Virus record (IMG/VR): IMGVR_UViG_3300044699_000063
Span: 1 to 64,000 of that record
Direction: 5' to 3' (one strand)
Length of the DNA stretch: 64,000 nucleotides
From: a virus
Position numbers and translations under genes: made by a program. How positions within the stretch are numbered: position 1 is the first letter of the stretch; every line of letters starts with the position of its first letter. This document shows positions 1-60,870 of this stretch, one piece after another. Under the pieces are notes generated by a model. The model ran no database searches. It was not told the DNA's origin and saw only the letters and a list, made by a program, of their open reading frames with translations.

Positions 1-822
1 GCCATCTGCGCGTATGACCGCCGGGACGGGTTCCTGGCCGCTCAGACCGATTCGACGGTGGCGATGGAGTTCGTGTCGCGCATCTTGACCGATGCCGACT
101 GGGGCGACGTCGCCAGGACTGCCGAGGTTCTGGAAGACGTCTGGGAGACCACCAACTACCGCCCGCACGGACCGGAGAACTGGGGCAACCACGTCCACGT
201 CTTCCGGCCCGATGAGTTCACCTACGACTCGTCACCGTTGCGGCGATGGGTGACCGCGCTCATGGCCGATGAACGACTCGACTGGAACCTGCTCGCCTGT
301 GGCGGGCGGTACTCCGGCCAGATTCGCGGCTACAACGGCCGCAAGCCGTCCAAGAACCCGTCCTGTTGGGACAGGTTCAACGACGGTTCGCCGTCGACCG
401 GCTGGCTGGCCGACAAGATGAGCACGACCGAATACCGGGTGTGGAACACGCCCGCCGAGGTCAACCGGCTCAGCTTCCACGTCGCGGCGTCCGTCGCCAT
501 CCAACGATGGGCCTACCTGAACCACAACACCGCGGATCGGTTCGCCGTCGTCGCTCAGAAGCTGGAAAACCGGCCGATGCAAGACACGCTGGACGAACTG
601 GCGTCTGTCTGGCCGAACACGCCGGAACGTGACGACCATCTGACCTTCATGTCGCGGGCCATCGTGGGCCGCGATCCTGGGACGTACTCCGACGACGACT
701 CCGTGGACTACGCCGACGACTACGACGGGGACGACGACTACGACGACGAACCCAACGACGGGTGGGAATACGTCGAAGGCTGCAACTGCCCCTCATGCGA
801 GGCGATTCGGGAGAGCCGATGA
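1..822 (+). CDS. Amidoligase family protein, 5' end cut by window edge
   Basis: The frame is open from base 1, so the start lies outside the window; the GTG at 58 is internal. The visible 273 residues keep the amidoligase (COOH-NH2 ligase, glutamine-synthetase-like fold) signature: QTDSTV near the start, NHVHV, and STTEYRVWN before the helical C-terminus. The same landmarks occur in the complete gene at 2824. Family knowledge: these enzymes use ATP to join a carboxylate and an amine. Odd features are an Asp/Tyr-rich tail (about residues 225-255) and a terminal CNCPSC. The stop overlaps the next ATG (ATGA). Confidence 0.72.
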   Translation, partial: AICAYDRRDGFLAAQTDSTVAMEFVSRILTDADWGDVARTAEVLEDVWETTNYRPHGPENWGNHVHVFRPDEFTYDSSPLRRWVTALMADERLDWNLLACGGRYSGQIRGYNGRKPSKNPSCWDRFNDGSPSTGWLADKMSTTEYRVWNTPAEVNRLSFHVAASVAIQRWAYLNHNTADRFAVVAQKLENRPMQDTLDELASVWPNTPERDDHLTFMSRAIVGRDPGTYSDDDSVDYADDYDGDDDYDDEPNDGWEYVEGCNCPSCEAIRESR

Positions 823-986
823 ACGTCCTCAAGGCATGGTGCCTCGGCGTTCGTGACGGATGGGCGCAGCCGCACGAACTGACAATGGGTATGTCGTGGC
901 GTCACAACCAGGACATGAACGAGGCGTACGACCGCGGTGTGAACTTCGGTCAGCGCATCCGCTCGCCACGGAACCATCAGCGATGA
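819..986 (+). CDS. Small unknown protein, 55 aa
   Basis: ATG at 819 overlaps the amidoligase stop by four bases. The product starts MNVLKAWCLGVRDGW and has no domain I recognise. It ends with another ATGA overlap into the gene at 983. Its first codons resemble those of that next gene, as if the gene junction had been duplicated. Confidence 0.6.
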   Translation: MNVLKAWCLGVRDGWAQPHELTMGMSWRHNQDMNEAYDRGVNFGQRIRSPRNHQR

Positions 987-1279
987 ACGTCCTGGTCGAC
1001 CTGCTCTCGCGCGGCCTGGCTGATGAGGCTTGGCACGCCACGCTGGCCGGTGACACGAACATCACCGGCAACGTCATCCGCTGGCGCATCGCCCCCATCT
1101 GGCTGGCCTGCGACAAGCGCGTGATCGCTGACATGGGCTACGACCTGTACGGCTGGCCCGATGGCGGCGAAATGATCTACCGACTCATCGTCTGGCGTCA
1201 GGACTTCCCTGGCGCTGACCTCAGCCCCATCTCGGACGTGATGGTGCTGTTGACCGATTACGTCCACTACGACACCTGA
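983..1279 (+). CDS. Unknown protein, 98 aa
   Basis: Starts MNVLVDLLSRGLADEAWHA at the ATGA overlap. Soluble mixed alpha/beta composition with several tryptophans and no motif I can name. It sits directly upstream of the glutamine amidotransferase and is probably translated with it. Confidence 0.6.
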   Translation: MNVLVDLLSRGLADEAWHATLAGDTNITGNVIRWRIAPIWLACDKRVIADMGYDLYGWPDGGEMIYRLIVWRQDFPGADLSPISDVMVLLTDYVHYDT

Positions 1280-1294
1280 AAGGGGTGATGACCT

Positions 1295-2309
1295 ATTTGC
1301 GGCATTGCAGGATTCTCCTTCTTGGACGAGGCTGACCTGGACGGTGAGCATCTCGATCCTGCGGGCTGGCTGCGGGTTCTCGGCTTGGAGATGGAATCAC
1401 GCGGTCGCGACGCCACGGGCGTCGTGGCCTTCGATGACTCCGGAGCGATCAGGGTTGCCAAAGCGCCCGACCGCGCATCCAAGTTCTTCCGTGCTCATCC
1501 GAAGATGGCCGAAGGCGCTCGCACAGCGCTGTGCCATACCAGGGCACGGACACAGGGAAGCGAGAAGAACCCACTCAACAACCATCCGATCCGATACGGA
1601 CCTCTGTACGGCATCCACAACGGCATGGTCTCCAACGACCACGCCCTGTTCCGCGAGAACAAGTGGGACCGCGCCGGGGAGGTCGACAGCGAGGCGATCT
1701 TCGCTGCCATCGCCAATCTCGGCCCGAAAGCCGGACTGGAAGCGGTCAACGGATCAATGGCCGTTGCGTGGGTCGACGTTTCCGATCCGCACACGCTCCA
1801 TCTCGCACGCGGCAACAATTCGCCGCTGCACGTCGTCACATCGACGGTCGGCATCTTCTTCGCGTCCACCGCGGCCGCGTTGAAGCTGATCGTCCCTGAC
1901 GGCACGATCCAGTCCTTCTCCGAAGGTGACTACGTGACGATCCGGCGCGGAAAGCTGGAAACCATCGACACCTTCAAGTGCGGCTACCAGTACTCAACTG
2001 TCAACAACAGTTCGGGAAAAGCCGCAACGACGACGATCACGTCCCAGTACGGCATGAAAGCGGCCGACCTCAAGGTCGGAGAGCGCGTCAGGATCGAAGG
2101 AACGTCCGTCGTCGGGACCGTCGTCCACATCGGCGGTGAGCACACGATCTGGGTTGAGTGGGACCCATCTCCCATCTCCCCGACGCGGCTCACCAATTCC
2201 TCGGCGGGACCATCCGACGCTCCCGAAGGAACTCATCGCCAAGTACGCGACCACAACCGAACCGGCTGAGTCCGAACCTGCTGAGTCCGAACCTGTCTCA
2301 GTGCCATGA
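1295..2309 (+). CDS. Class II glutamine amidotransferase (Ntn hydrolase), apparent ATT start
   Basis: Class II amidotransferases need Cys as residue 2, exposed after Met removal, to release ammonia from glutamine or cleave amides. Here CGIAG follows directly after ATT at 1295, with AAAGGGG 8-9 bases upstream and an in-frame TGA at 1289, so no conventional start is available. Further family motifs: SRGRDATG (about 35-42), HTRA (81), NNHP (95) and HNG (108). A VGERVRI...GTVVHIGG segment near the C-terminus looks like a small SH3/KOW-type fold. The frame as written stops at 2269. A one-base shift near 2158 gives a tail containing EPAESEPAESEP that stops at 2309 and overlaps the next ATG, so I favour 2309. 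Likely works with the amidoligases on either side. Confidence 0.8.
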
Positions 2310-2836
2310 GCCTCACCGCGATCGAATCGCTCACCGTTGTCGCCAGCCCGAACTATCTGAACCAACGGCATTACGCCGTTGACGGATGGCATGGGTTGGC
2401 ACAGCGCGTTGACGACGATCTGTATTCGGGCACGAGCTACGAAGCGCGCACAGTGCGCGTCGATCCGTACAGCGAGCAACCGACAGTCGGTGACACCGTG
2501 GCTCGCATTGGCGTGTTCGCCGCGTCGGCACACGATGGGCGGTTCCTGCCCTCGCTGCACGCCCAACGGTTGCTGTTGTCGGCCCCGCCCGACGATCCGG
2601 CGATCCTGGCGTGCTGGCGTCAGTTGCTGACCAGCTACCGCACCGGCCACCGCCGACCTGACCGCCCGACTCACGATCTGCGTTCCCTGGCCGTGCCGGT
2701 CGGGCCGCGGATCGTCAACGAGCGGTTGGCAGAACTCAACACCCACTTCGGGGAGCGCTGGTCGGTTGGCCCGATGACCACCGACTACGCCCTGATCGTT
2801 GCAGACATGAGGGGAGGCCCCACTTGGATGAGTTGA
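2306..2836 (+). CDS. Unknown protein between amidotransferase and amidoligase, 176 aa
   Basis: ATG at 2306. No family recognised; it has an Arg-rich stretch (TGHRRPDRPTHDLR) and a mixed composition. It overlaps the start of the amidoligase by 13 bases, so it belongs to the same translational unit and may be an accessory or substrate protein of that cassette (inference from position only). Confidence 0.6.
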   Translation: MSLTAIESLTVVASPNYLNQRHYAVDGWHGLAQRVDDDLYSGTSYEARTVRVDPYSEQPTVGDTVARIGVFAASAHDGRFLPSLHAQRLLLSAPPDDPAILACWRQLLTSYRTGHRRPDRPTHDLRSLAVPVGPRIVNERLAELNTHFGERWSVGPMTTDYALIVADMRGGPTWMS

Positions 2837-3690
2837 CCACTTTCGGCTTCGAACTGGAACTGGCGAGCGGCGCGGACGCGATGGTCGCCGTGCTCCATGA
2901 GGCTGGCCTGTTGCCAGAGGCGCGGTTGCATCGCTACCACTGCGACTGCGACTGGTGCCGGGATTGGACGCGCCCACTGCGCGCTCAGACCGATTCGACG
3001 GTGCAAGGCGAACTGATTTCAGGCGTGTTCAGCGGTGCGACCCTGGACGACGCCTGGGACCTGCTCGCCACACTGGAATCGGCCGCGGTCCAGACTTCGG
3101 CGCAGATCAGTGAACGGTGCGGCATCCACGTCCACGTCGGACACCGCGGCGCGGCGATCCGGCCCACCGAGTTTGTTCGCACTGCACGGCGTTACTGCGC
3201 CGTCGAAGAACACCTGATCCGCACTCTGGCCCCTGGACGCTTCGCGTCGAAACGCCAGATGAACAGGACCGTGCTGGAAGCATTGCGCTACTGGCGCGAC
3301 ATGGCTGGCGTGACCAGTATCGACTTCACAGCGCCGTGGAACACCGTTCTCGGTGCGGCGAACTTCGACCGCCATCTCGACTTGAACTTCGACCACGGCC
3401 GCACCGGCACCACCGAGTTCCGGCTGTGGAACGCAAGTCTCATGTCCTGGCGTGTCGAACTGGCCGTGCGCCTGTCCTGCTTCCTGGCCGAAGACCACGG
3501 AGCGTGGGTGCCCCAGGCATGGGCGCAAGGCGCGGGGGCGATGTTGCAAGACCTCGCCTGGAACAGCCAGGAACGGCTGATCCCTTCTCCGTTGACCTGG
3601 GACGAACTGGTCTCAGTGGTCGACGCGACCGATCCTGCCTGCGCCACGCTCATGCGTGAGCAGGCCCGATACATGCGAGAGACCTACTAA
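2824..3690 (+). CDS. Amidoligase (COOH-NH2 ligase family), complete, 288 aa
   Basis: TTG start with GGGGAGG seven bases upstream. Landmarks in order: FGFELE (7-12, metal/nucleotide side), a CDCDWC cluster (40-45), QTDSTV (55-60) with Glu63, CGIHVHVG (99-106) and TTEFRLWN (196-203). These are the conserved sites of the amidoligase_2 type of the glutamine synthetase / glutamate-cysteine ligase fold, predicted to form amide bonds using ATP. Its neighbours are the class II amidotransferase and a paralogue at 1-822, the association described for this family in phages and bacteria. The substrate is unknown. Confidence 0.8.
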   Translation: MDELTTFGFELELASGADAMVAVLHEAGLLPEARLHRYHCDCDWCRDWTRPLRAQTDSTVQGELISGVFSGATLDDAWDLLATLESAAVQTSAQISERCGIHVHVGHRGAAIRPTEFVRTARRYCAVEEHLIRTLAPGRFASKRQMNRTVLEALRYWRDMAGVTSIDFTAPWNTVLGAANFDRHLDLNFDHGRTGTTEFRLWNASLMSWRVELAVRLSCFLAEDHGAWVPQAWAQGAGAMLQDLAWNSQERLIPSPLTWDELVSVVDATDPACATLMREQARYMRETY

Positions 3691-5635: not shown

Positions 5636-6399
5636 TGGAGAACTACCAACTGACCTGGCGGAACTGTGAAGACCTGGCCGTGCGGCTGGACCGCGCCGGG
5701 TTCGCGATGCCCAACGGCGCATCGTGGTTGTCAGGTGTCGTCGAGCGTGACCATCGCCCGGCGTCCGTTCCGGAGTCAGCGAAGTTCATCCGCGAACTCG
5801 CCACCACGGCACGCGACAGGCTGACCTTCGACGGGGGTCGGCTGTTCGACGCCCAGACCCGCGGCGGCGTTCCGAAGTGGAGATGGGTCAACGGCTGGGT
5901 GACCGGCCTTCCACCGCTGCTGGACAATCCGGCCCCGAAAGACGACGAGTGGATGCCCGACGACAAGGCCCACTTCGAGTTCCACGCCGACCATCCGCAC
6001 GAGAACCCGCACACCTTGTGGTACCGCACCAACCGTGACGTCACGGTGCTCGGGCGAGGCACGTCGTGTCTGCCCGACGCGTGGGACTGCCCGACGGTGA
6101 AGAAGCGGATCAAGGCCAACTGGATGCGCTCTTACATGGTGCGCTGGGAGTTGGACGGATACGTGGGCGAAGTGTTCGAAGACGAACTCGCTGCCGGTCC
6201 GACCCACTGGCGGTTGACGCCCGTCGAGAAGGTGACAGAGGAACGAGCCGCCGCGCTGCCGGTTCGCAAGGCGAAGGCTCTGCCGGTCGTCGCCCGGTCC
6301 TCGGTCCTCGACTTCCTCCGCGACGACCCGCCGATCCGGCAGCGGCAGCGCGAGAGCCAGGGAAACGATGGAGACGCGTCTCAACCGCGCCCTCGATGA
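5635..6399 (+). CDS. Unknown protein, about 254 aa
   Basis: ATG at 5635 overlaps the stop (TGATG); GTG at 5632 is an alternative. Soluble, Trp-rich, with a Pro-rich charged C-terminus that is read out of frame over the first 32 bases of the next gene. No motif recognised. Confidence 0.6.
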   Translation: MENYQLTWRNCEDLAVRLDRAGFAMPNGASWLSGVVERDHRPASVPESAKFIRELATTARDRLTFDGGRLFDAQTRGGVPKWRWVNGWVTGLPPLLDNPAPKDDEWMPDDKAHFEFHADHPHENPHTLWYRTNRDVTVLGRGTSCLPDAWDCPTVKKRIKANWMRSYMVRWELDGYVGEVFEDELAAGPTHWRLTPVEKVTEERAAALPVRKAKALPVVARSSVLDFLRDDPPIRQRQRESQGNDGDASQPRPR

Positions 6400-7962: not shown

Positions 7963-8211
7963 GTGAACTACGTGACGCCATCGCCGCGGCGGTTGAACAC
8001 GACGCCGACACCTATCAGGACACGTACGGCGCGGCTGATGCCGGTGCTCGCCATACCTGAGATTCGCAAGGCTCTCGCCGTGCTGGCGCTCACGCCAGGG
8101 ATCATCGACCAACTGAACGAGATTGCCGAGATGGACCGGCTCCGTCCGAGCCTGATCTTGCTTGCCGTCGAAGCAACCGCAGCCGCTCTCCGCGAGGCGG
8201 TGGAGTCATGA
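7959..8211 (+). CDS. Small unknown protein, probably one gene with a frame break
   Basis: ATG at 7959 opens a frame that stops at 8060 (33 aa). A second frame from about 8038 continues as LAIPEIRKALAVLAL and ends REAVES at 8211, joined to the next gene by ATGA. The second half has no good start of its own, so a single frame-broken gene of about 83 aa is likely; two small overlapping genes is the alternative. Confidence 0.45.
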
Positions 8212-8435
8212 GCGCGCTGGTTCTCCACCTCGTCCAAGATGGCGATGAGTGGACCGGCTGGATCGACACGCCGGACGGACGAGTCGACTACCCCGCCCCT
8301 GGCTGGGCGGGCGAGAAGCTGACGCCCGGCACAATCATCGACCGCGCTGATCGCTGGGCCACACAGCGAGGGGTGCTGCTCGACCTCGACCTCATCACTT
8401 TCCTCGGGACTTCCCGCGAGGCGGTGGAGTCGTGA
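8208..8435 (+). CDS. Unknown protein, 75 aa
   Basis: ATGA overlap at 8208. Beta-rich start, ends SREAVES, the same C-terminal residues and nearly the same DNA as the gene just before it, which points to a duplicated gene-end segment. Confidence 0.55.
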   Translation: MSALVLHLVQDGDEWTGWIDTPDGRVDYPAPGWAGEKLTPGTIIDRADRWATQRGVLLDLDLITFLGTSREAVES

Positions 8436-8584
8436 GCTACGTCGCGATCGTCCTCGACCGTGACGGCAACGAAGTCCTCAGGCTCGGTCCCCGCGAAGGT
8501 GAAGACGCAGCCCAGCTGCTGCGTGAAGGCCTGCGGATGGACTACCCGGAACCCGACTACCACATCGAAGTGAAGGAGGTTTGA
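8432..8584 (+). CDS. Unknown protein, 50 aa
   Basis: GTG at 8432 (GTGA overlap). Small alpha/beta protein; its last codons (AAGGAGG) also form the ribosome binding site of the gene at 8586. Confidence 0.5.
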   Translation: MSYVAIVLDRDGNEVLRLGPREGEDAAQLLREGLRMDYPEPDYHIEVKEV

Positions 8585-17570: not shown

Positions 17571-19314
17571 ATGGAGAGGCGGTCGAGGTCCTCGGGCATC
17601 TCGGTCCTGCGGAGAACCATTCTTCGATCATCTCGTAACGGTCCGGCTCGTTGAACTCGCGTCCCAGTAGGGCGCGACGGGCGACGGGAGTCATCCGTCT
17701 TGTGGGCATGACCACTTCCGCAAACGGCAGGTTGGAACCACCCAGAGCCAGGGTGCGGAACCCCAGCGCGGGCGGCGTCCACCTGGTCGTCGTGGCGTCC
17801 AGCGAGGAACACGCGATGTTCTTCGACGAACGCTTCGACGTCCCAGGGTGCCGTCACGCTACCAGGTAGACCAACCCGTTGCCTTGATGGGCGGCGTACC
17901 CGGCGGCTCGCACGTCCTTCTTGCCCGACACTGGTTCCGGCGTGAAGCGGTAGCCCATCAGCTTCTTGGCGAAGATCGTCGAGTTCGACTTGCCGGACGC
18001 ACCCTTCTCTTCTTCCATCGCGATGATCGTGTCGAACCCGTCCTGATCGGCGGTGAGCATCACCAAGTTCTGCACTCCCGCCGGATCGAGGCGGTCGCGC
18101 ACCACGTTCAGCACGTACACCTCGCCGTTGAACCGAGACCATCAGCACGCCGACCGTGTAGTCGCCCTTGCGCAGTGAGGCGGAGAGGTTCCCAGGCCCG
18201 CACCCTGAACATGATCTGTTCAGGGCGGACCATTTCCCACGTACCGCCACCGGTCGACCTTGAACGACCCGCCCTCCTTCGGCGTCGGGTTCTGCTGCCA
18301 CAACGCCTCCCACGACTTTGCTGCCCACGATTCTCGGCCAGCGTGCGTACCTGGGTCAGCTGCTTCAAACCCGTACGCTGAGGCCACAGCGGCTCGCTTC
18401 CTTGCGCCCGAGTCTCAGTCCCGCCAGTCCCTGCGGAACGCCTCGTACCACTCGTCCAGCATCTCTGAACGCCACTGATCGACCATTCCTCGACCGTCTC
18501 GGCCCACCCATCGGGTGGAGAAGGAGGATCGCCGAACTCGACGTCGTCGGGTGGTGGTGGGCATCAGCGAGAGCGGGAAACGCACGATCTCCCAGTCATC
18601 CATCCACCGCATCCAGCCCATCGGGGTCTTCGACGTGGTGGCAGATGCGCCCGGCCAGATCGTCTTCACGCCACCTGCGCTTGGGCGAGGATCATCAGCC
18701 CGCCCGGTTCGAGACGGTTGCGCAGCGTCTCGTAGTACCAGACCTCCTGGTTGTTCATCTCGGTGGGAGAGTCGGCCTGGTCGGGTCCTTGATCGTGTCG
18801 TCGATGATGATGACGTGCGCGCCTTCACTGTGATCATGTCCGCCGATGCCGACGCAACGCAACTCGGAGCCGTTCGTCAGCCCCCAGAACGCTCAGCCTC
18901 TTGTCCTTCTCAACGGTGCAGCCGAACAGCGACGTGTGCCCACTCCCGCGCCAGGTCCATCGCCGCCTTCCCCCAGCGTCGAGCGCGGTCATCGGAGTAG
19001 GTGACGAACAGCACCTTGATCCCCGGGAACACGCCCATCAGCCACGGTGCCAGGTAGCGGGCGAGGAAGAACGACTTGCCGTGGCGCACCGGGACGACAC
19101 GGCCAGGAACTGCCATGTCGCCAGCGGGCCATCGACTGTGGGTGGCCGATGCGGAACTTGTCCAACACCCGGTCGGCCATGTAGTTCAGGTGTGGTGCGC
19201 GCACGTGCTGGCCGCGGCTCGTGTACTCCATGAAGGTGATCGGAGACCCGATGATCTCAGCTTCGCCTTCAGTTCCGGGTCTAATCCGTGGTGGTCAGGA
19301 AGAATCTCCGTCAT
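17567..19314 (-). CDS. terL: Terminase large subunit, frame-broken
   Basis: ATP-driven DNA packaging motor and nuclease. From ATG at 19314: MTEILPDHHGLDPELKAK, GSPITFMEYTSRGQHVRAP, Walker A VPVRHGKS, LFVTYSDDRARRWGKAAM, Walker B HVIIIDDTIKDP, ETLRNRLEPGGLMILAQ with WREDDLAG, then the nuclease domain: MYVLNVVRDRLDP, a TADQDG...IAMEEEKGASGK block, GRHDDQVDAARAG with paired acidic residues, and the end. About 580 aa, typical length. At least seven one-base breaks. It is convergent with the early + operon and 30 kb from the capsid genes. Confidence 0.8.
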
Positions 19315-24664: not shown

Positions 24665-26131
24665 TTACGGACTGGGGGTGGATTGACGATCTCGCGGCCC
24701 CCCTGGCTCAGCGAGGATTGCCAGCAACTCTTCACGGTTGGCTTCCGCCCCGGCGGGAAGACTCGTCGGTCCCATGATCCCGGCGCGCGGCGCGTAGGCA
24801 GCGGCCACCTTCACCCGGCGGGCCAGTCGTTCAGCTTCGAGATAGGCGGCGGACTTCATGTCCTTGTCGGTGGCAGGCGGATGCCACAGGTGCAGTGCTG
24901 GGCCGGGAACGCGCGGTGCTTCGCCGCAGAGCACATTCGCCGCCAGCCAGAAGCACCGATCCTCGAACCCCCAGGACGTGAACCGCTCGTCGTAGCCTCC
25001 TGTCGCTTCCCACACGGCCTTAGTGATCGCCATTGCCCCCGACGCGTGACGCCGCGACTCAGGTCGCAGTGATCGCAGTCGCGGATGGAACTGGTTGGGC
25101 TGGCTCCAGCGCATCAACCGCCGCGTCTCGTCTCGCTGGAACCGGACGTAGTTGTCGAAGGCCAGCACCAACTGATCCCGTTCCTTGGCGAGACTGGCTG
25201 CCGCCCAGAACTGTTCAGGCATGACAAACGTGTCGGCATCGGCGACGAACACGACCTCGGGTCCGTAACTGAAGGCCATGCTGATCGCACGGTTGCGCAT
25301 CACCGACCGGTTCAAAGTGTCAGCCCGGCCGGTCACCACTGGGACCGACATGGCTCGCTCCCACCAGTTGACCGTCCACTCGTAGGCGCTGTTGCGATGC
25401 ACGTCCGCCGGGGCGTAGGGGACGGCGACCACCACGTCGAGCCGTTCCGCCACGAATCGGCCTATGAACTGCACCCAGTCGCGGGGGGTGTCGATGTCGT
25501 CGGTCCAGTCGTCGATGTGGGTCTGGTGCGGCAGCCGCGCTACCAGCGCCCCGTTGTTCATCCTCTCCGCCCCCACCCCGTTAACGGCTGCGAGGACGTG
25601 GCGCATCTTCACGTTGCGCAGCATGTGGGTGGCTTCCAGGTGGTCGAGGCGCGTTGCGATCGTCAGCAGCCGCTCATGGACGGCTTGGAGCGGTGGAATC
25701 CACACGGCGAACGTCTCGTCATGGGCGTGACCGGTGAGCACCGAAGGACCGGGCCGTCGGAAGAAGTGGGTGTCCACGCCGTCGTGCCCGACGATGGCGT
25801 CGAAGCACTCTCCCGAGTACCAGACGTCGCCGAACAGTAGAACGGTTGGTTCGTCCAGAGACCACAGATGGGCGGTGGCGATCAGCTTCGCCATGTCCGA
25901 GCCGACCGGGCGCGGCTCGTCGAGCCTCACCCACTCCGAGAACTCGATGCGGTAGCGCTCGTCCGGGCCGATCACCGTTGATTCGATGCCGCGGGCGTGG
26001 CAGTGGGTCGCGACATGCGAGACCAGGGGCTTGCCGCCCACCTTCACGAAGTGTTTCGGAGCACCCAGGAAGGGCTTGCCGTCGACGTCCCAGCGTGCTC
26101 CTGATCCTTGGCAGAGGATCAGAGCCTTCAC
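24665..26131 (-). CDS. Fusion: sugar nucleotidyltransferase domain + glycosyltransferase domain, 488 aa
   Basis: GTG at 26131 overlapping the previous stop. Residues 1-210: nucleotidyltransferase fold (ALILCQGSGARWDVDGKP, HFVKVGGKPLVSH, VLLFGDVWYSGE), as in NTP-sugar transferases. Residues 230-450: GT-A glycosyltransferase (VVVAVPYAP, RNRAISMAF, VVFVADADTFV with the DxD, ASGAMAITKAVWEATGGYD, TSWGFEDRCFWL). The domains could make and then transfer an activated sugar, probably onto virion or host surface. No frame breaks. Confidence 0.75.
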   Translation of the reverse strand: MKALILCQGSGARWDVDGKPFLGAPKHFVKVGGKPLVSHVATHCHARGIESTVIGPDERYRIEFSEWVRLDEPRPVGSDMAKLIATAHLWSLDEPTVLLFGDVWYSGECFDAIVGHDGVDTHFFRRPGPSVLTGHAHDETFAVWIPPLQAVHERLLTIATRLDHLEATHMLRNVKMRHVLAAVNGVGAERMNNGALVARLPHQTHIDDWTDDIDTPRDWVQFIGRFVAERLDVVVAVPYAPADVHRNSAYEWTVNWWERAMSVPVVTGRADTLNRSVMRNRAISMAFSYGPEVVFVADADTFVMPEQFWAAASLAKERDQLVLAFDNYVRFQRDETRRLMRWSQPNQFHPRLRSLRPESRRHASGAMAITKAVWEATGGYDERFTSWGFEDRCFWLAANVLCGEAPRVPGPALHLWHPPATDKDMKSAAYLEAERLARRVKVAAAYAPRAGIMGPTSLPAGAEANREELLAILAEPGGPRDRQSTPSP

Positions 26132-31429: not shown

Positions 31430-34400
31430 CAGCGCAGCGCCTTCTTGATCGCCGTCTGGTTGTCGCGTGCGATGCGCTGAGCAACCAGTTCGGGGTCGAC
31501 ACCGAAGATGTTGTTCGTGTTCTGCACCAGGGGCACGTTACGGGCCTGCGCTTCAGCGCGACGGGATTCCTCCGCCGCGATGACGTCGGTGAGGTTCTGG
31601 TTGATCTTGTCGAACTGGGCGACAAGATCGTTCACCGGGTTCGCCCCACCCAACCCGAACTGGGCCAGCAGATCACCGATCACTGGCGCGTTGCCCTTGT
31701 TCTGAAGCGCTGCTCCGATCAGGGCCTTCTGAAGCTGAGAGAACACGGCGTTCGCCGAAGCGGTGTCCCCTCGCTCCACGTCTCCGACGATCGCGTCGCG
31801 CGCCTGAGCGATGATGTTCGCCAGCGTGGAACGGTTCTGCCGCGCCCTCAGCCGTCCCCAGGCTCAGGCCCTTCTTGAAGTCCTTCTTGTTCTTGACGAG
31901 TTCAGCGATCCCCGACAGGGCTTGGGCTTGGGCATCGACGATCTGGCGTACATCGTCACCGGACGTCTGCTTCAACGCCGCCGCCAGCTGCTCGCGGATC
32001 GCGTCGACCAGCTGCTTGGTGCCGGTGTGTCACTCCTCCGCTGGCGGCTCGCCCGAGGATGACGTTGACGAACTTGGAGATGGCATCTCCGGCCGCGTCC
32101 GCCCCTCCTTCATGCCCTTGACGAGACCGTCGATGATGTCCTTGCCGAACTTCTCGAACACTGTCGAAGGCGAGTGGATGCCGAGCAGCCCGGTGAACGT
32201 TGTCGACACCGTGTCGGCGAGGGCGGCAGCCGCCTGCGACACCGCTCCACGCGACTGCTCCAACCCCAAAGCCAGCCCCTGGCCGACCTCGTGGCCCTGA
32301 CCGCTGAGCGAGATGTGCCCGATCGAACCACCCAACAGCAGATCAGGCAAGACCGGACTGACGCAGCAGCGACAGGGCGCGGGCGGGCTTCGTGAGCGGG
32401 ATGACCGCCTCGGGCTTGTTGCCTTCGGAGATCGAGCGACCTGCGCCTTGGCGAAGATGCCACCTTCCGCCGTCTTGGCGGGCAGGCCGAGACCGGTGGA
32501 GAAGTGAACGGACGGCCCCTTGTATGTGATGGACGTGACGTTCAGCTTCGAGTTGATCACCTTCGGGATGCCGAGAATCTCGTTGACGGTCAGGTTGACC
32601 GAAGCCGGTCCTCCTTCAGCCGACGACTGATCTCCGCCTTGATGTCCTCCGTACGTTCGGGTTGACCAGAACCTGGTCGATGATCGTCGGCAGCTTCACC
32701 TTGCCCAGCAGTTCGGGCGGGATCGCCAACTGAAGCTTGAGACGGATCGAACAGTTCCCCCGAGGCGAGGCCGTCGCGGATCGCCGCACCCAGGTTGGTG
32801 CGGAACGCCTCCTCCGCCTTGGAGAAATCTCCGGCAGCGCTGTTCGCCAACTGCTCGTCAAGGATCGAACGGATCGTCTCTTCGGAATGCCCTTCAGCAC
32901 GCCCGAGATGATGATCTCGTCGACGCGCCGCCGATCGCTTCCGCTGCCTTGTCCTTGTCCTTCAAGATGTCGCGGGGCAGAGAGCTGAGGAACTCCGATG
33001 CCTGCGAGCGGATCGCCGCGATGTCGGTTCGGAACTTGCGCCCCGGCCTGTCCGCCGCCCGAGATGGCGATGCTCGTCAAGTCGATGCCGGGCTGATCCT
33101 TCAGCAGCTGGGCGATCGAATCCAAGGCAGCGTTCGTGTTCAGCAAGAACTGGTCAGCCGCCGTCTGCCCTGACGGAGGGTTGAGGGTGTTGAGGTAGAC
33201 GTCGAGCGAACTCTTCGCCCGATCGGTCGCCCGGGCCACCTCATCCCAGTCGCCCGCGATCTTGGCGATCTGCTGCTTGCGCTGCAATTCGCGCGTCGCC
33301 GCCGAGAACCCCTGCACGCTCCGGTCGACCCGAGGAATCCGAGTTCGAGACGGTCGAGAACCGTCTGCAACGCGCGCGATCTCCTGGAGCCTGTCAGCCC
33401 GGCCTGGAGCGCGGTCTGGCCGAGGAAGTTCTTGAACAGGACGAAATCCGTGCCGCCCTTGCGCACAGCATTCTCCGACTTTGCCGAGGTCGATGCCGAT
33501 GCGACGGAACTGAATCTCCAGATCGGACGGCAACAGTTCCGCGATGACCGGTCCGAGCGATGAGCCTTCCTTGCGCGCCTTAGTCATCGCTTCGCTGATC
33601 TTGTCGACGGCGAGACCGAGCGCGGACAGTGGAGTCGTCTGCTTCAGGGAGGTGATGACGGAGTCGATCGTCTTGTCGAACTCGTCTGGCGTTCTTCACC
33701 GACCCGGCAAGGTTGCGCTGGTTGCGTTCTCCAACTCCTGGTCGAGGGCCCGAGAGCCTTCACCAAGGCCAGCGCCCTGATCGGCTCCTCGCCGGGCAGT
33801 CGAAGGCTGTCTGCACCGCCTTCGCTGCGTTGCGCAGACCGCGCGACTCCCCTGCCGGTAGAGCGTTGCCGAGAGCATCAATCTGGCTGATGAACCCGCC
33901 GATCCCCGCGACCGCTGAGCGAGTTGGACCTTACGGAAGGAGTCGACAAGTTCGTTGACCGCGTTCGAGCTGGCGAACCGCTGGCCGGGACCGAGCTGGT
34001 TGAGCACGTCGCCGATCCGATCCCGAGGCTTTCGAGAGCGGGGGCGAGACCCTTCTGCTTCTGGGCGATCGCTTCCAGGCCAGCAGCGAAACCCTTCCTC
34101 AGCTTCGGTGCTGGCCTTCAGCGACTGAGTGAAGGAGTCGACGCGCTCCTTGGCTCCTTCGCCGCCTTCGCCCGCCTTGCCCGAAGCAGAACCCGACGAG
34201 GGCGATTCCTCCGATGATTCCGGCCGCGGCGAAGTTCTGGGTGATGATTGCCTGGATGGCGAGACCGGCAGCACCGGCCAGTGAGATGACCTGCGCCAAC
34301 CCGCCCTGGAACGCTCCGAAGTAGGCCCCGACACCAGCGGCTGCGGCCGGTCCGATTGTGTCGCCCAGCTTGCCGAGTTGCGTCACTGCGGTCTTCGCCC

Positions 34401-37400
34401 CGACAAGGAAGCTGGCAAACAGCCCACCCCGAGCGACTGCTTCAGGCCATTGGCCTTGCTGACGACATCCTGCTGCGTCCTGATGAACTGTTGGTAGCCG
34501 TTGATCCCTTCCTTCACGTTCCCGGTGAGAACCTGGAAGGTCGCCTTCGACCCAGCAGCGAGAGGCTGGAAGAAGCTGGTGCGAATCCTGTTGAACAGCA
34601 CCACACCGAACGCCGCCCCGATCAGCGCGACGACCGAACCAAGTGGGCCGGAGATCGCCACCTTCAAGAACCCGACCGCTGCCAGCGCGACGGCTCCGGC
34701 AGCCGCCTTGAAGGCCAGAGGGACAGCGATCTTCAGCACGTCGGAGATGACGCGGGCGATGTCGTCGATGCGACCCTGCAAGCCCTTAGCGAAGCCGATG
34801 ACGAAGTTGACGGCAATGTCCGCTGCCACGGCGACCACTCCGGCGGCGGCGGCGAGGATCGCCTTCAACACCGGTTCGGAGAAGATGGTCGTCAGGCCGG
34901 AGCCGAGTTTGCGGGCAGCGAACCCGATGCCCTTGAAGATCGTGAGGCCGATCTCCTTGTAGTCGATGTTGCGGAAGGCTTCGAGCAGGGCCGCACCGAT
35001 GTTGCGCCCGAGTGCCGTGATCGTGCCGAGCGCGTCACTGAAGTTGCCGGTGAACAGCTGGCTGGCGGAGCGACCGACAGCACCGACGACGCGGGCAAGG
35101 TCCTGGAAGAACCCAATGACTCCGGAAGCTTGCGCCCCGCTGGCGAGTCCGGTGAACCCCTCCGTCAATCCGTCGAACAGCGTCTTGACGGTAGGGCCGA
35201 TGCGGAACAGGAACTCGGACACGACCAACTGGCCACCGAAATGATCAGCCGCCCGATCCGAGTGAACACCGGCACGACGTCGGTGATGAAGAACTGGGCG
35301 AAGCGCTGCACGGCAGGCAGGAGGGTGTCGATGATAAAGCTCCGCGCCGTCTCCAACGCTGGGATCAACTGATTGTTGATGGCCCGACCGACAGCGTCGA
35401 ACACGACATTGGTGCGCCGCGCGGCTGGCGCGCGGTTGTCCGCCAAGGTTTCGCGCTGGGCGTCATTGAGACCGCCCCGGGCTTCTTGCCGCCACTGCCG
35501 AACAGTGACTTGCGGAGCCGGTCGAGCGGACCGAGGACGGTCGTCGAGATGAACCCGACGAGGTTCGACAGCGACTCCTTGAACTCATCCGACTTTCTGG
35601 ATGCCGATCCCGATCGCCCCGCCGATCGCGAGGACCCCGAGCGCAGCCAGCTGCGCTGGGCTGGCCATCCCGATGAGCGTCGACTTCAGGAGACCGAGCA
35701 CCTCGACCCCGCCCTTGGCGGCAAGGATCGCACCGAGCGCCACAGCCATCCCGGCGAGTGCTGCTCTAATGGTGGAGTACACGCCCTGCCCTTGCAGAAG
35801 GTTGGACGTCAAGGTGGCGAACTGGTTGATGACCCTGCCGAGCGGCTTGTCGATCTTCTCGATCAGCAGGATGCCTGCCGTCTCAATCACTGAGTTGAAG
35901 TTGTCGAACGCCGCCCTCATGCCCTGGTTGACGGCCTTGCCGAGCAACTCCGATGTACCGGCGGCGTTGCGGATCGTCTCGGTGAAACCGGTCAGCTGTT
36001 CGTCGGTCTGGCCGATGAAGATCGAGGCGGCACGGAAGGCGTCGGTGCCGAAAATCTTCTTCAGGAAGTCCAGCTTCGCTTCCTGGCTGAAGTCCTTCAG
36101 CGACTCGCGCAGGTTCTTGATGATGTCGATGAACGGCAGCACCTTGCCTGCCGCATCGAAGAACAGCCCTCCGACCTCGCCGCCGGTCTTACCGATGATC
36201 GTGCCGAGCGACGCGATGGCCTTCTGTGCCTGGGTCGACGAGCCGGTGAGTGCGAGCAGGAACGTCTTCAGCGAGGTGCCAGCGTCCGAACCGCGCAGGC
36301 CGTTCTTGGCGAGGATGTCGAGGGCGATGTTCATGTCCTCGAACGCGCCCTGCCCGCCGCGGATCGCGGTGAAGAACTGGCTGAACACGGCACCGGCCTG
36401 CTGGATTCCCTGCGACAGTTCGGTGAACGACTGCCCGCCGCCCGACACAAGCGACCGCTGCGCGATGTCGACGATGCGGACGGCCTTGTCGGCGTCGATC
36501 CTGAACGAGTTGATCGCTGACCCCGTGAACTGCGCAGCCTCGCCGAAGTCGAGCATGTTGTTGCGCGCCAACAGCAGTGTGCCCTTCGCCGCGCCGATGG
36601 CCTGATCGACGGTGAACCCCGCCTGCACGAGACGGGTCAGGGATTCGGTGGCGTCCGCGGCAGACACGCCTGGCAGTGAAAGGTCGTTACCGAGGGCGAT
36701 GGCTGTCTTGCGAAGTTGTTCCAATTGAGCGGTGGTGGCCCCGGTCAGCGCTCCGAGCCGTCGGAAGTTCGCCAGGAAGTCTTGGGCCGAGCTGAAGATG
36801 GCGCGCAGCGACAGCGCTCCACCGCCGATGAGGGCGATGTTGCGAAGCGAAGCCCCGATGGGGGAGATGCCGCGCGCCGCGCCGAGCACACCCGTCTGCG
36901 TCCGTTGGGACAGGAGCGCCTGCGTCGATGAACGCTGGGTTCGAGCGATCTTCTCCTCGAACCGTCTGACTTCCAGCTGGCGGCGCGACAACGTCTCGCG
37001 CAGCTGGCGTTCCTCGCGCTTGTCCGAGGAGACCTGTTCAGTGATGATCCGGTTGTTGTGGTTGCGCCGGGCATCTCTGATCTTCGTCAACCCCGCCTGG
37101 GTGAGTTGCAAGGTCAGAGCGTTGAACCGCTGCAACCGCAGGGTGCGGCGCTTCTCGTCCTGCTGCGCTGAGGCGACGTCGAGCTGGCGTTGACGCTTGG
37201 CGTTCTCGATCGCCGTACGCGCCGCGATCTCCTGCTGGGTCCGCTCGTTGATGAGTGAGTTGACGGCGCTCCGTCCCGCCACCTCCTCGCGGCGGACCGG
37301 GATCGTCGACTGCGTGCGGGCGAGGGAGATGCGCCGTTGTTCGACACGCTTCTCTTCGCGCTCCGTCTTGTCCAGCGACAACCGCAGTTGGTCGTTGGCC

Positions 37401-37888
37401 GTCTTCAGTTTGGCCGTCGCCTCCGTCGCCTTCGCCGTGGCGGAGGCCAACCTGGCGGGGGCTTCGATTTCAGCCCTCTTGATCGTCGCCTGGTTCGTTG
37501 ACCTCGTGCGCTTCGTCGCTTCCTTCTCGACGATGCTGATGGCCTGATTGACCTGACGCTGGAGTTCAACCTGCCCCTTCGTCAGACGCGTCTTGGCGGC
37601 GAGGATCGCCTTGTCGCCGAGCGCCTCGCCCATCTGGGTCCCGGCCTTGCCGAACTCCTTGACGAGCGACTCGGAGAAGTTCCGCACGACGCTGCGCAGC
37701 TTCGGGTTGGCGCGCGACGACAGGTCCTGGGAGATCGCCTTAATCAGCGCCTTGTCGATCCCGGCGCGCCCCATCGCCTTCTCGAACTCCTTGGCGAGCA
37801 CGGAAGCGATCTCGTTGGACAACCCACCGAGCGCTTCGACGGCAATACCGGCGTCGATCGTTACTCGACCGTCAGCCTCTGTCGCCAC
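31429..37888 (-). CDS. Tape measure protein, about 2150 aa, frame-broken in 31.7-35.5 kb
   Basis: Sets tail length and is ejected with DNA. From ATG at 37888 the first 767 residues are intact: a long coiled coil (about 140-330), then a TP901-type core (SAQDFLANFRRLGALTGA, TRLVQAGFTVDQAIGAAKG, ELSQGIQQAGAVF). Further pieces are hydrophobic (AAAAGVVAVAADIAVNFVIG), and the C-terminus has AEGGIFAKAQVA, LGIHSPSTVFEKFGKDI and a last helix ending at 31429. About ten breaks. By the usual 0.15 nm per residue rule, the tail would be near 300 nm. Confidence 0.8.
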
Positions 37889-42413: not shown

Positions 42414-43872
42414 TCATCGAAGTTCACTGTAAGTGGCAGCCTTACCCCACGTCACGTTCAGTGCTGTCGAATCTCGATTCCCCACCCACGGTGATTGACG
42501 GTGGACTGGCCCGACGAGCGCTACGACCTGCGAGTCGAGCAGGGAGACCGCGTCGACGATCGTGCGCAACGCCGTCTGGAGTTGCTCGATGTCGTCGTCG
42601 AGGCCCAGCTGATCGGTGATCGTGCGGGTCAATCCCGAGCACGGTCGACACCGAATCGACGAGGCCGATGACGTCGGTCGCCGACCGCGCTGACGCTGCA
42701 ACACGGTTGGCGGTGTCGACGAGACCGAGAGCGTCGACCTGTGTCCGCACCATGTCGAGGACGCGGGATGCCGAGTCGGACAGTCCGAGCGTGTCGGTGA
42801 TGGTGATGAGCGTGAACGTGAGCGACGACACCGCATCCGTGAGACCGAGCGCGTCGGTGACGGAGCGTGGGTAGTTCGCCGTTCTCGTTGCCGTGTCGGT
42901 GAGACCGAGCGCGTCGGTCTGCGTTCTGACCGCGGCGGTGATCCGGCTGGCGGAGTCGAGCATCCCGAGCGCGTCGGTGATCAAGCACCGAGATGCCGGT
43001 GACGATTGAGATCGAATCGGTGAGGACCGAGGTTGTCGGTGATCGAGACCGCTGCTCCGACGTTCGCCGTCGAACTGTCCAGCAGACCGAGGTTGTCGGT
43101 CTGCGTTCGCGCCGCGGCGCTCACCTGAGATGTCGAGTCCAGCAGGCCGAGGTTGTCGGTGATCAACGCGACGAGACGCGAGGACCGCGGTGAGACTGTC
43201 CGTCAGCCCTTCGTTGTCGGTCTGGCTGCGGACGTAGCTCGCCACCTGAGACGCGGCGTCGAGGAGACCTTCGTTGTCCGTCTGCGTGCGGAGGTAGGCG
43301 ACGATCCGTGAGGCGTCGTCCAGCAAGGCCTTCGTTGTCGGTCTGCGTCCGTTGATACGCGGCGGTCCACGAGAGGGAGTCAGCCAGACCGAGATTGTCG
43401 GTGAGCGTCACCGTGATCGTCACGAGCGCGGAGATGGAGTCGACGAGTCCGAGGTTGTCCGTCTGCGATCGCGCGTATGCGGCTGCGGTCGACAGGGCAT
43501 CCAACAGGCCGAGGTTGTCGGTTTGGGTCCGCGAGTACGCCGTAACCCATGAGATCGAGTCGAGCAGACCGATGTTGTCGGTGATCGTGCGGAACTCGCC
43601 CGCCACCTGAGATGTCGAGTCGAGCATCCGAGCGCGTCGGTCAACGTGCGGGCGAGAGCCTTCGCGTTGGAGTCGACGAGTCCGAGCGCGTCGGTCTGCG
43701 AACGCACTGCGGCCGTCAACCTGAGAAGTGGAGTCGAGTAGGCCCATTGTTGTCGGTGATCTCGCGGGTGTGGTCGGTCGGACCGCTCGGCCGCGTTGTC
43801 AGGGTCATCCCACGCGATGTTGATGTCATCGAAGACCGTGGCTTCGATGTCGAGGTCATAGAGGCCAGCCAT
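42414..43872 (-). CDS. Tail protein with about 20 tandem 20-residue repeats, frame-broken
   Basis: ATG at 43872 gives an N-terminal head of 45 residues (MAGLYDLDIEATVFDDIN...). Then a repeat of consensus TDNLGLLDSxSxVxxxxRTQ runs for about 20-21 copies to roughly 42520, followed by about 40 unique residues (PWVGNRDSTALNVTWGK). The DNA period is 60 bases, seen as GTCGGT cores every 60 bases. Early copies use TDNLGL, later ones TDALGL, showing two sub-families. Five or six frame breaks. Probably a fibrous virion shaft or surface protein. Confidence 0.6.
42510..43760. repeat. 60-bp tandem repeat array inside the tail protein gene
   Basis: About 20 imperfect copies spaced 60 bases apart, each with a TTGTCGGT or GCGTCGGT core on the + strand (encoding ACCGAC on the coding strand). 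Copies differ mainly at third codon positions and in the variable half of the repeat. The repetitive DNA coincides with a dense cluster of frame breaks. Confidence 0.7.
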
Positions 43873-59518: not shown

Positions 59519-60870
59519 TCAGCGCTGTTTCAGCTTCAAAGCCCGCTTCTGAGCCGGTGAAAGCCACGATCCCTCCCAGTGATGCACGCAGAAGCACCAC
59601 GGTTGGCTGATCGAGTGGTCTTTCGACGCCTTCGTGGCCTTCTCGGTGTAGTGGTACGGGTAGAACGCGCCCTGGAGGCAGCAGCAGCCAGTCCGCGTCG
59701 TCCGGGAAGCGTCGAGGTCGTCACACCAGGACCCGATTTCCACGCATCGCCGCCGTGTTCGAGTTCGTGGCGCGCCTTCTTCAACATGATCTCGACGGCC
59801 GGGTGTCCGGGTTCAGCTCCGAGCACCGCATCGGGAACGACCTTGGCGTCTTCCCACGCGGCGAAGCCCTGGTTGTGAATCAGCGGCTCCAGTGAGCGAT
59901 AGGCTCGACATCTGAGTCGACATACACCCCGCCCCAGCGCCAGAGCGCTTCAAGACGGATCAGCCCGGCCTTCTGCGCGCCCGACTGACACTGTTCCCAC
60001 AGGTCGCCGGTCTCCGGCCAGTCATTCGGATCGAGCGGGTCTCGATGGGTCATCAGCTCCCATCCGGGATGGAGTTGACGCCAGTGCTCCCACCAGTCAT
60101 CCACCTTGCGGTCGACGCGTTCGGGGATCGTGCGGTGCAGGATGCGCGGGATGCGCGACGGTTCCAGTTCGGGATCGGGGTCATCGACGACGCCGGACAT
60201 CACCCGCCGCAGTCCGTCCGGATCGAAGTGTGTGGCCTTGTATGCCTCTCCGCGTCGTTCGTTCGCCTGGAACGTCGGCTCTCGCCGGTTGTTCTCGTGA
60301 CTGGTGCGATGGTGCATGTGCCAGATCGGCCCACCGATCTGAGCCATCAGTCCATCCCCGAACGTCTCGCAGGCGATACGAAAGGCAATGTCTTCCCATC
60401 CCCACCCGCGGAAGTTCTCGTCGAACCCTCCGACAAGGTCCCACAGTTGATGGTTGACGACGACGGCCGAACTGCACGCGTTCTTGTAGGTGCGGCTGAC
60501 CCAGCCCGGCTGTTGCCAGTTGCCGCGGAACCCGTTCATGATCTTCTGCGTTGCCCGGTCCGACAGCATGTGCTTGTCACTGAAGGCGAGCACCATTCGG
60601 TTCGACGTCGCCGCCAGCTGGACTGCTGTCTTCACTTGCTCGGGACCGATCAACACGTCCGAGTCGATGATCACCGCCACGTCCCACGGCTCGGCCTTCG
60701 CCGCGGCGTCGTTGATCGCTGCGGAACGGTTGAACGGTCCGACGTCGTGGTTGCCTTCGACGATCGGCCAGTCAGGATGATCATTGGCCCACCATGCTCG
60801 GGCGAAGTCCCACAAGCGGTCGCGATCAGGGGATTCCGGCGCGGCGGGGAACAAGGATCACGACGTTCAC
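59519..60870 (-). CDS. Two-domain glycosyltransferase (GT-A galactosyltransferase-like + GT32-like), frame-broken
   Basis: GTG at 60870: MNVVILVPRRAG, break near 60835, then RDRLWDFARAWWANDHPDWP, GPFNRSAAINDAAAKAEPWD, VAVIIDSDVL (DxD), DLVGGFDENFRGWGWEDIAF, ending about residue 190. A second domain begins RIPRILHRTIPERVDRKVDD, AGLIRLEALWRWGGVYVDSD, the Gly_transf_sug/GT32 signature with its own DxD. After breaks near 59890 and 59700 it ends PWCFCVHHWEGSWLSPAQKR. About 450 aa. Likely adds two sugars. Confidence 0.65.

Follow-up and report, generated by a model that had tools for sequence, protein, structure and literature searches.

An actinophage amidoligase–glutamine amidotransferase cassette with duplicated ligases and a probable ATT start codon

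In the 64,000-base stretch of viral DNA analysed here (hereafter the window; bases 1-64000 of a 67,049-base record), a class II glutamine amidotransferase (GATase) lies between two paralogous amidoligases, AL1 and AL2 (Table 1). We read this arrangement, with a probability of roughly 60%, as an actinophage version of the amidoligase–GATase cassette, in which ammonia-fed amide formation would be performed with duplicated ligases, probably on a cell-wall peptide or a metabolite. Cassettes of this type are already known in many phages, and ours is a further version rather than a system of a new type. What is new is the duplication of the amidoligase within a lineage of actinophages that have no recognisable ATP-grasp or cyclotransferase partners, together with a GATase gene for which ATT appears to be the only workable start codon both in the window phage and in its nearest relative, L008. 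The initial annotation, which had described two amidoligases around a GATase in a phage, holds up as real and correctly read, its gene identities and phage context included, and its interpretation is supported in part. The type of system is largely known; the in-lineage duplication makes ours a variant, and the ATT start is noteworthy.

Table 1. Features of the cassette in the window and in the related contig L008
Feature	Sequence	Position	Strand	Description
AL1	window	1..822	+	diverged Amidoligase_2-type ligase, N-terminus cut by contig end
55-aa ORF	window	819..986	+	family not found; no Pfam match
98-aa ORF	window	983..1279	+	no Pfam, PHROG or NCBIfam match
intergenic gap, 15 nt	window	1280..1294	+	precedes GATase; Shine-Dalgarno-like GAAAGGGG at 1278-1285
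GATase	window	1295..2269	+	class II glutamine amidotransferase, Ntn fold, predicted ATT start
176-aa orphan protein	window	2306..2836	+	relatives not found
AL2	window	2824..3690	+	complete Amidoligase_2, TTG start, 288 aa
AL1'	L008	5049-5975		full-length, FGIEYE (= FGxExE motif)
GATase'	L008	6001-7329		between AL1' and AL2'
AL2'	L008	7330-8289		PF12224 1.1e-9, 39 bits

The record derives from an uncultured actinobacterial virus. PHROG matches of its tape measure, major head protein, portal and DnaB-like helicase mark it as a tailed phage, and the phage records matched by the portal protein are all from actinobacterial phages (452/452); models of defence systems gave no meaningful match. Because the window starts at base 1 of a record without end repeats, AL1 cannot be extended to the left, and completing it by wrapping the contig around was ruled out, end repeats and a matching right end both being absent. 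The nearest of 80 loci retrieved from viral contigs with the window GATase is L008, a contig of 67,272 bases in which the gene order AL1-GATase-AL2 is the same. Few other genes are recognisably common to the two phages (helicase, head genes), mostly at 26-37% identity and in inverted blocks. At four-fold degenerate codons for identical amino acids, third bases agree in 31% of cases between GATase and GATase' (27% expected at random) and in 29% between AL2 and AL2' (31% expected), so that silent sites are saturated between the two phages. AL1 and AL2 found no match in phage records; scans of viral contigs with either ligase alone returned nothing and scans with the window and L008 pairs returned L008 only, while the GATase pair had no relatives in host genomes.

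The main open reading frames of the cassette were recovered at the positions first assigned to them, and their description as a coupled operon holds: there are two ATGA overlaps (819-822, AL1 stop and 55-aa ORF; 983-986, 55-aa and 98-aa ORFs), the two intergenic gaps measure 15 and 36 nt, and the AL2 start overlaps the preceding gene by 13 nt. The 176-residue protein had been counted towards the richness of the cassette, a point that we do not retain: GATase' and AL2' have no extra gene between them in L008, which places the protein outside the conserved set. It has no relatives in Pfam, PHROGs, NCBIfam, phage records or viral contigs (single-sequence scan), and its similarity to an unknown protein of ~190 aa beside the amidoligase of LUZ24-like phages and Zobellviridae is not significant.

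The two ligases differ in how closely they follow their family. AL2 matches PF12224 (Amidoligase_2) at 4.9e-6, and both it and AL2' pass the curated Pfam cut-off of 22 bits (27.0 and 39 bits, respectively), whereas AL1' scores 13.5 bits and the window AL1 has no Pfam match above cut-off; we therefore term AL1 a diverged paralogue and not a Pfam member. It aligns with AL2 at 36% identity over 69 aa (E 1e-5) and with AL1' at 36% over 172 aa (2e-21). The reported succession of a truncated and a complete amidoligase is thus borne out, as are the DSTV, HVHV and TTE[F/Y]R sites in both: AL1 carries DSTV..E, HVHV and TTEYR, followed by an acidic, Asp-rich tail ending in CNCPSC, and AL2 carries FGFELE, TDSTV..E, HVHV and TTEFR. 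The FGxExE of the window AL1 falls off the contig, and AL1' has it. An alignment of 45 sequences shows conservation of FGxExE, D, E, HxH and T-E-R. In alignments that include AL1, the last four do not vary at all and FGxExE hardly varies, so that both paralogues keep their catalytic residues. AL2 also contains an inserted HRYHCDCDWC, a putative zinc motif, at residues 36-48 (window 2929-2967). The corresponding HxYHCxCxxC insert is visible ahead of the DST motif in AL2, AL2' and AL1', and other Cys-rich inserts occur in many phage amidoligases.

Structure prediction agrees with the family assignment. The AlphaFold model of AL2 (pLDDT 83) matches YbdK (3.3e-6), glutamine synthetases, plant glutamate-cysteine ligase and PafA in Foldseek searches, and AL2 is accordingly predicted to have a glutamine-synthetase/gamma-glutamyl-ligase fold. 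The outcomes that the initial annotation had named as refuting it did not arise: AL2 has this predicted fold and both paralogues retain their catalytic residues. Likeness to YbdK, glutamate-cysteine ligase and glutamine synthetase lies in this predicted fold; identity to AL2 is only ~12% and their substrates are not transferable to it. The model of AL1' is moderately confident (pLDDT 69) and its best PDB matches, again glutamine synthetases, are weak (6.4e-3, none reaching E < 0.001).

A tree of 74 amidoligases, arbitrarily rooted, unites AL1, AL1', AL2 and AL2' in one clade (98/97) that splits into AL1+AL1' and AL2+AL2', a topology which indicates that AL1 and AL2 were duplicated within the lineage before the window phage and L008 separated. 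The shared HxYHCxCxxC insert fits such a duplication. AL1 evolves faster than AL2 while retaining its catalytic motifs: its end branch in the window is 2.36, against 0.99 for AL2, a length that makes its exact place in the tree less certain. Five further IMG/VR contigs (L078-L081 and L083) also carry two Amidoligase_2 paralogues, one on each side of the GATase. The same tree shows these copies to stem from a duplication of their own: in this second group the amidoligase was duplicated independently, again flanking the GATase. These amidoligases are longer and Cys-rich (many CxxC, about 420-630 aa), and the GATases are 34-37% identical to that of the window over part of their length.

The description of the central gene as an intact-looking Ntn class II amidotransferase is upheld by matches to PF13522 (8.4e-19) and PHROG 14519 (1.1e-26), with its start corrected to ATT 1295-1297. 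The protein has HTR, HNG and DSE motifs, a catalytic Cys at codon 2, directly after the start if initiation is at this ATT, and a C-terminal extension of ~120 aa; it matches the glutaminase domain of GlmS in the PDB and, weakly, EgtC (0.025).

Class II GATases require a cysteine immediately after the initiator methionine. No ATG, GTG or TTG is found at the proper N-terminus of the window GATase; the ATT precedes TGC GGC ATT GCA GGA TTC (Cys-Gly-Ile-Ala-Gly-Phe), the frame is closed by a TGA two codons ahead of the ATT (1289-1291), and GAAAGGGG shares bases with the preceding stop and ends 9 nt ahead of the ATT. An upstream ATG at 1288 is out of frame with the GATase and has no equivalent in L008, where the start is laid out as GAAAGGAAGG TACCCACC ATT TGC with the ATT at 6001-6003. 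Among the 78 GATase genes with a readable start, 75 begin with ATG, one with TTG and two, those of the window and L008, with ATT. Both genes are otherwise intact, and initiation at AUU is therefore the most likely reading for the two phages. A sequencing error, which in the window would need an extra T, is a less likely account of the missing ATG, and we rejected it since L008 also has ATT-Cys behind a different upstream sequence and has no ATG nearby. The codon is common to the two genes despite their randomised silent sites, and its presence in these two relatives counts as a single evolutionary event. If confirmed, a conserved non-NTG start of this sort would be a rarity for a phage enzyme gene, and gene callers restricted to ATG, GTG and TTG would misplace it, dropping the catalytic cysteine. 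The non-canonical starts of infC, which encodes IF3, and of Streptomyces sigR are repressed by IF3 (PMC5472188), and by analogy the ATT start could possibly limit the dose of the GATase. All three genes start outside ATG/GTG/TTG, but IF3 repression was shown for infC and sigR, whereas the phage start is read from sequence alone.

Pairing of an amidoligase with a class II GATase, as the initial annotation had it, is correct and is the rule among the viral loci retrieved. An Amidoligase_2 gene is near the GATase in 78 of the 80 loci, usually as one copy directly upstream, and in the other two the GATase is at a contig end. The prediction that podovirus cassettes modify peptidoglycan reportedly goes back to Iyer et al. 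in 2009, as later work has it. Two-ligase cassettes predicted to modify peptidoglycan have been described in RIO-1/phiEco32/LUZ24-like phages (PMC5498523, PMC3890496, PMC10580990). Work on Pseudoalteromonas phages counts seven genes in this peptidoglycan modification cassette, two of them for amidoligases, and hypothesises that it hinders superinfection (PMC5498523). The cassette had been called richer than the usual single copy; this is correct relative to most relatives, but not relative to these published podovirus cassettes (PMC5498523, PMC3890496) or the contigs in which two ligases recur. The podovirus cassettes share with ours a class II GATase and two glutamine-synthetase-fold ligases in one gene cluster. 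Their second ligase is of the COOH-NH2_lig family (PF14395) and they add ATP-grasp and AIG2 cyclotransferase genes, whereas here the second ligase is a duplicated Amidoligase_2. We saw the podovirus pattern in the genomes of a LUZ24-like phage, of a Zobellviridae vibriophage and of a related phage, where COOH-NH2_lig and Amidoligase_2 are the two ligases and are accompanied by an ATP-grasp gene and, in most, by an AIG2-like one; a search of the 67-kb window record and of 33.6 kb (half) of L008 turned up no COOH-NH2_lig, ATP-grasp or AIG2/GGCT genes. Closer in host are Arthrobacter phages (Laroyevirus and relatives; Waltz, Salgado, Laroye), which carry a cyclotransferase-amidoligase-GATase module (PMC5513430). 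They too are actinophages with an amidoligase directly upstream of the GATase (31.6% identical to that of the window), but they have one amidoligase, an ATG start and an adjoining gamma-glutamylamine cyclotransferase gene. A lineage with just a GATase and two duplicated ligases represents a reduced version of the cassette, suited to testing its chemistry.

In the pathway order that we infer, the GATase would hydrolyse glutamine and hand the ammonia to an amidoligase, which would use ATP to turn a carboxylate into an acyl-phosphate and then into an amide; alternatively, given the gamma-glutamyl-ligase-like fold of the ligases, one of them may join an amino acid or amine to the carboxylate. After the in-lineage duplication AL2 would have kept the family profile while AL1 diverged fast, and such divergence with retained catalytic residues suggests that the two ligases handle two acceptors, carboxylates or amines, in one short pathway. 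The independent duplications likewise point to two substrates. The likeliest target would be a cell-wall peptide of the host, or a small metabolite, that is altered in the course of infection, with a benefit such as a block to superinfection, as others have proposed; the two-step peptide tag first suggested is one possibility among the putative mechanisms. The cited literature on phage cassettes reports no substrate or activity for any phage member. Against our reading we count the partner genes not found, the long branch of AL1, and the moderate AL1' model with its weak PDB matches. It could be taken further, into a scheme that we consider rather unlikely, in which an AUU-translated GATase, its dose set by host IF3, would feed two ligases with separate substrates, and in which the evolution of the AMID-GATase-AMID arrangement on at least two occasions would imply that phages repeatedly profit from two-substrate amidation.

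The same genes could also serve a gamma-glutamyl protection cycle, in which AL1 and AL2 would glutamylate an amine and the GATase-fold protein would act as an EgtC-like gamma-glutamyl amide hydrolase instead of an ammonia donor. In actinobacterial ergothioneine synthesis EgtC removes the gamma-glutamyl group after EgtA. The closest solved folds to the AL2 model are gamma-glutamyl ligase-like (YbdK, glutamate-cysteine ligase), the GATase stands alone without a fused synthase domain and has its weak EgtC match, and other phage cassettes include gamma-glutamyl(amine) cyclotransferases, which likewise remove such groups. Yet the stronger matches of the GATase are to the glutaminase domain of GlmS, and it is common for a ligase to be supplied by a glutaminase in a separate subunit, so that we give this cycle about one chance in four.

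Less probable still is a macromolecular target, a protein or nucleic acid of host or phage, in place of the cell wall, to which the ligases would add amino acids or ammonia for host takeover or protection from restriction. The amidoligase superfamily does include protein ligases such as PafA, which was matched in the AL2 fold search, and the putative zinc-binding insert of AL2, AL2' and AL1' could bind a macromolecule, but an unsystematic look noticed no DNA-modification partner genes. The fast evolution of AL1 might, finally, be that of a decaying or regulatory copy without catalysis. This we hold to be very improbable: all visible catalytic motif residues of AL1 are kept, the full-length AL1' also has FGxExE, and AL1 and AL2 are still open frames in both phages despite their great divergence.

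Other features of the window were noted in passing. The terminase large subunit is represented only by a short ORF fragment (18910-19116), and ORFs in other frames follow the tape measure gene (34099-37888), suggesting that the contig may have frameshifting indels. Two glycosyltransferase-like genes of PHROG 1721 (24665-26131 and 59880-60854) possibly serve glycosylation of the virion or host surface. A degenerate tandem array of ~60-nt units, repeating a TDNxGLxD motif, lies in minus-strand ORFs of the structural region (42442-43747). The repeat CCGCGAGGCGGTGGAGTC is found at two gene ends (window 8182-8472) and recurs far to the right in the record (record bases 64075-64105) as an inverted, imperfect copy of 31 nt.
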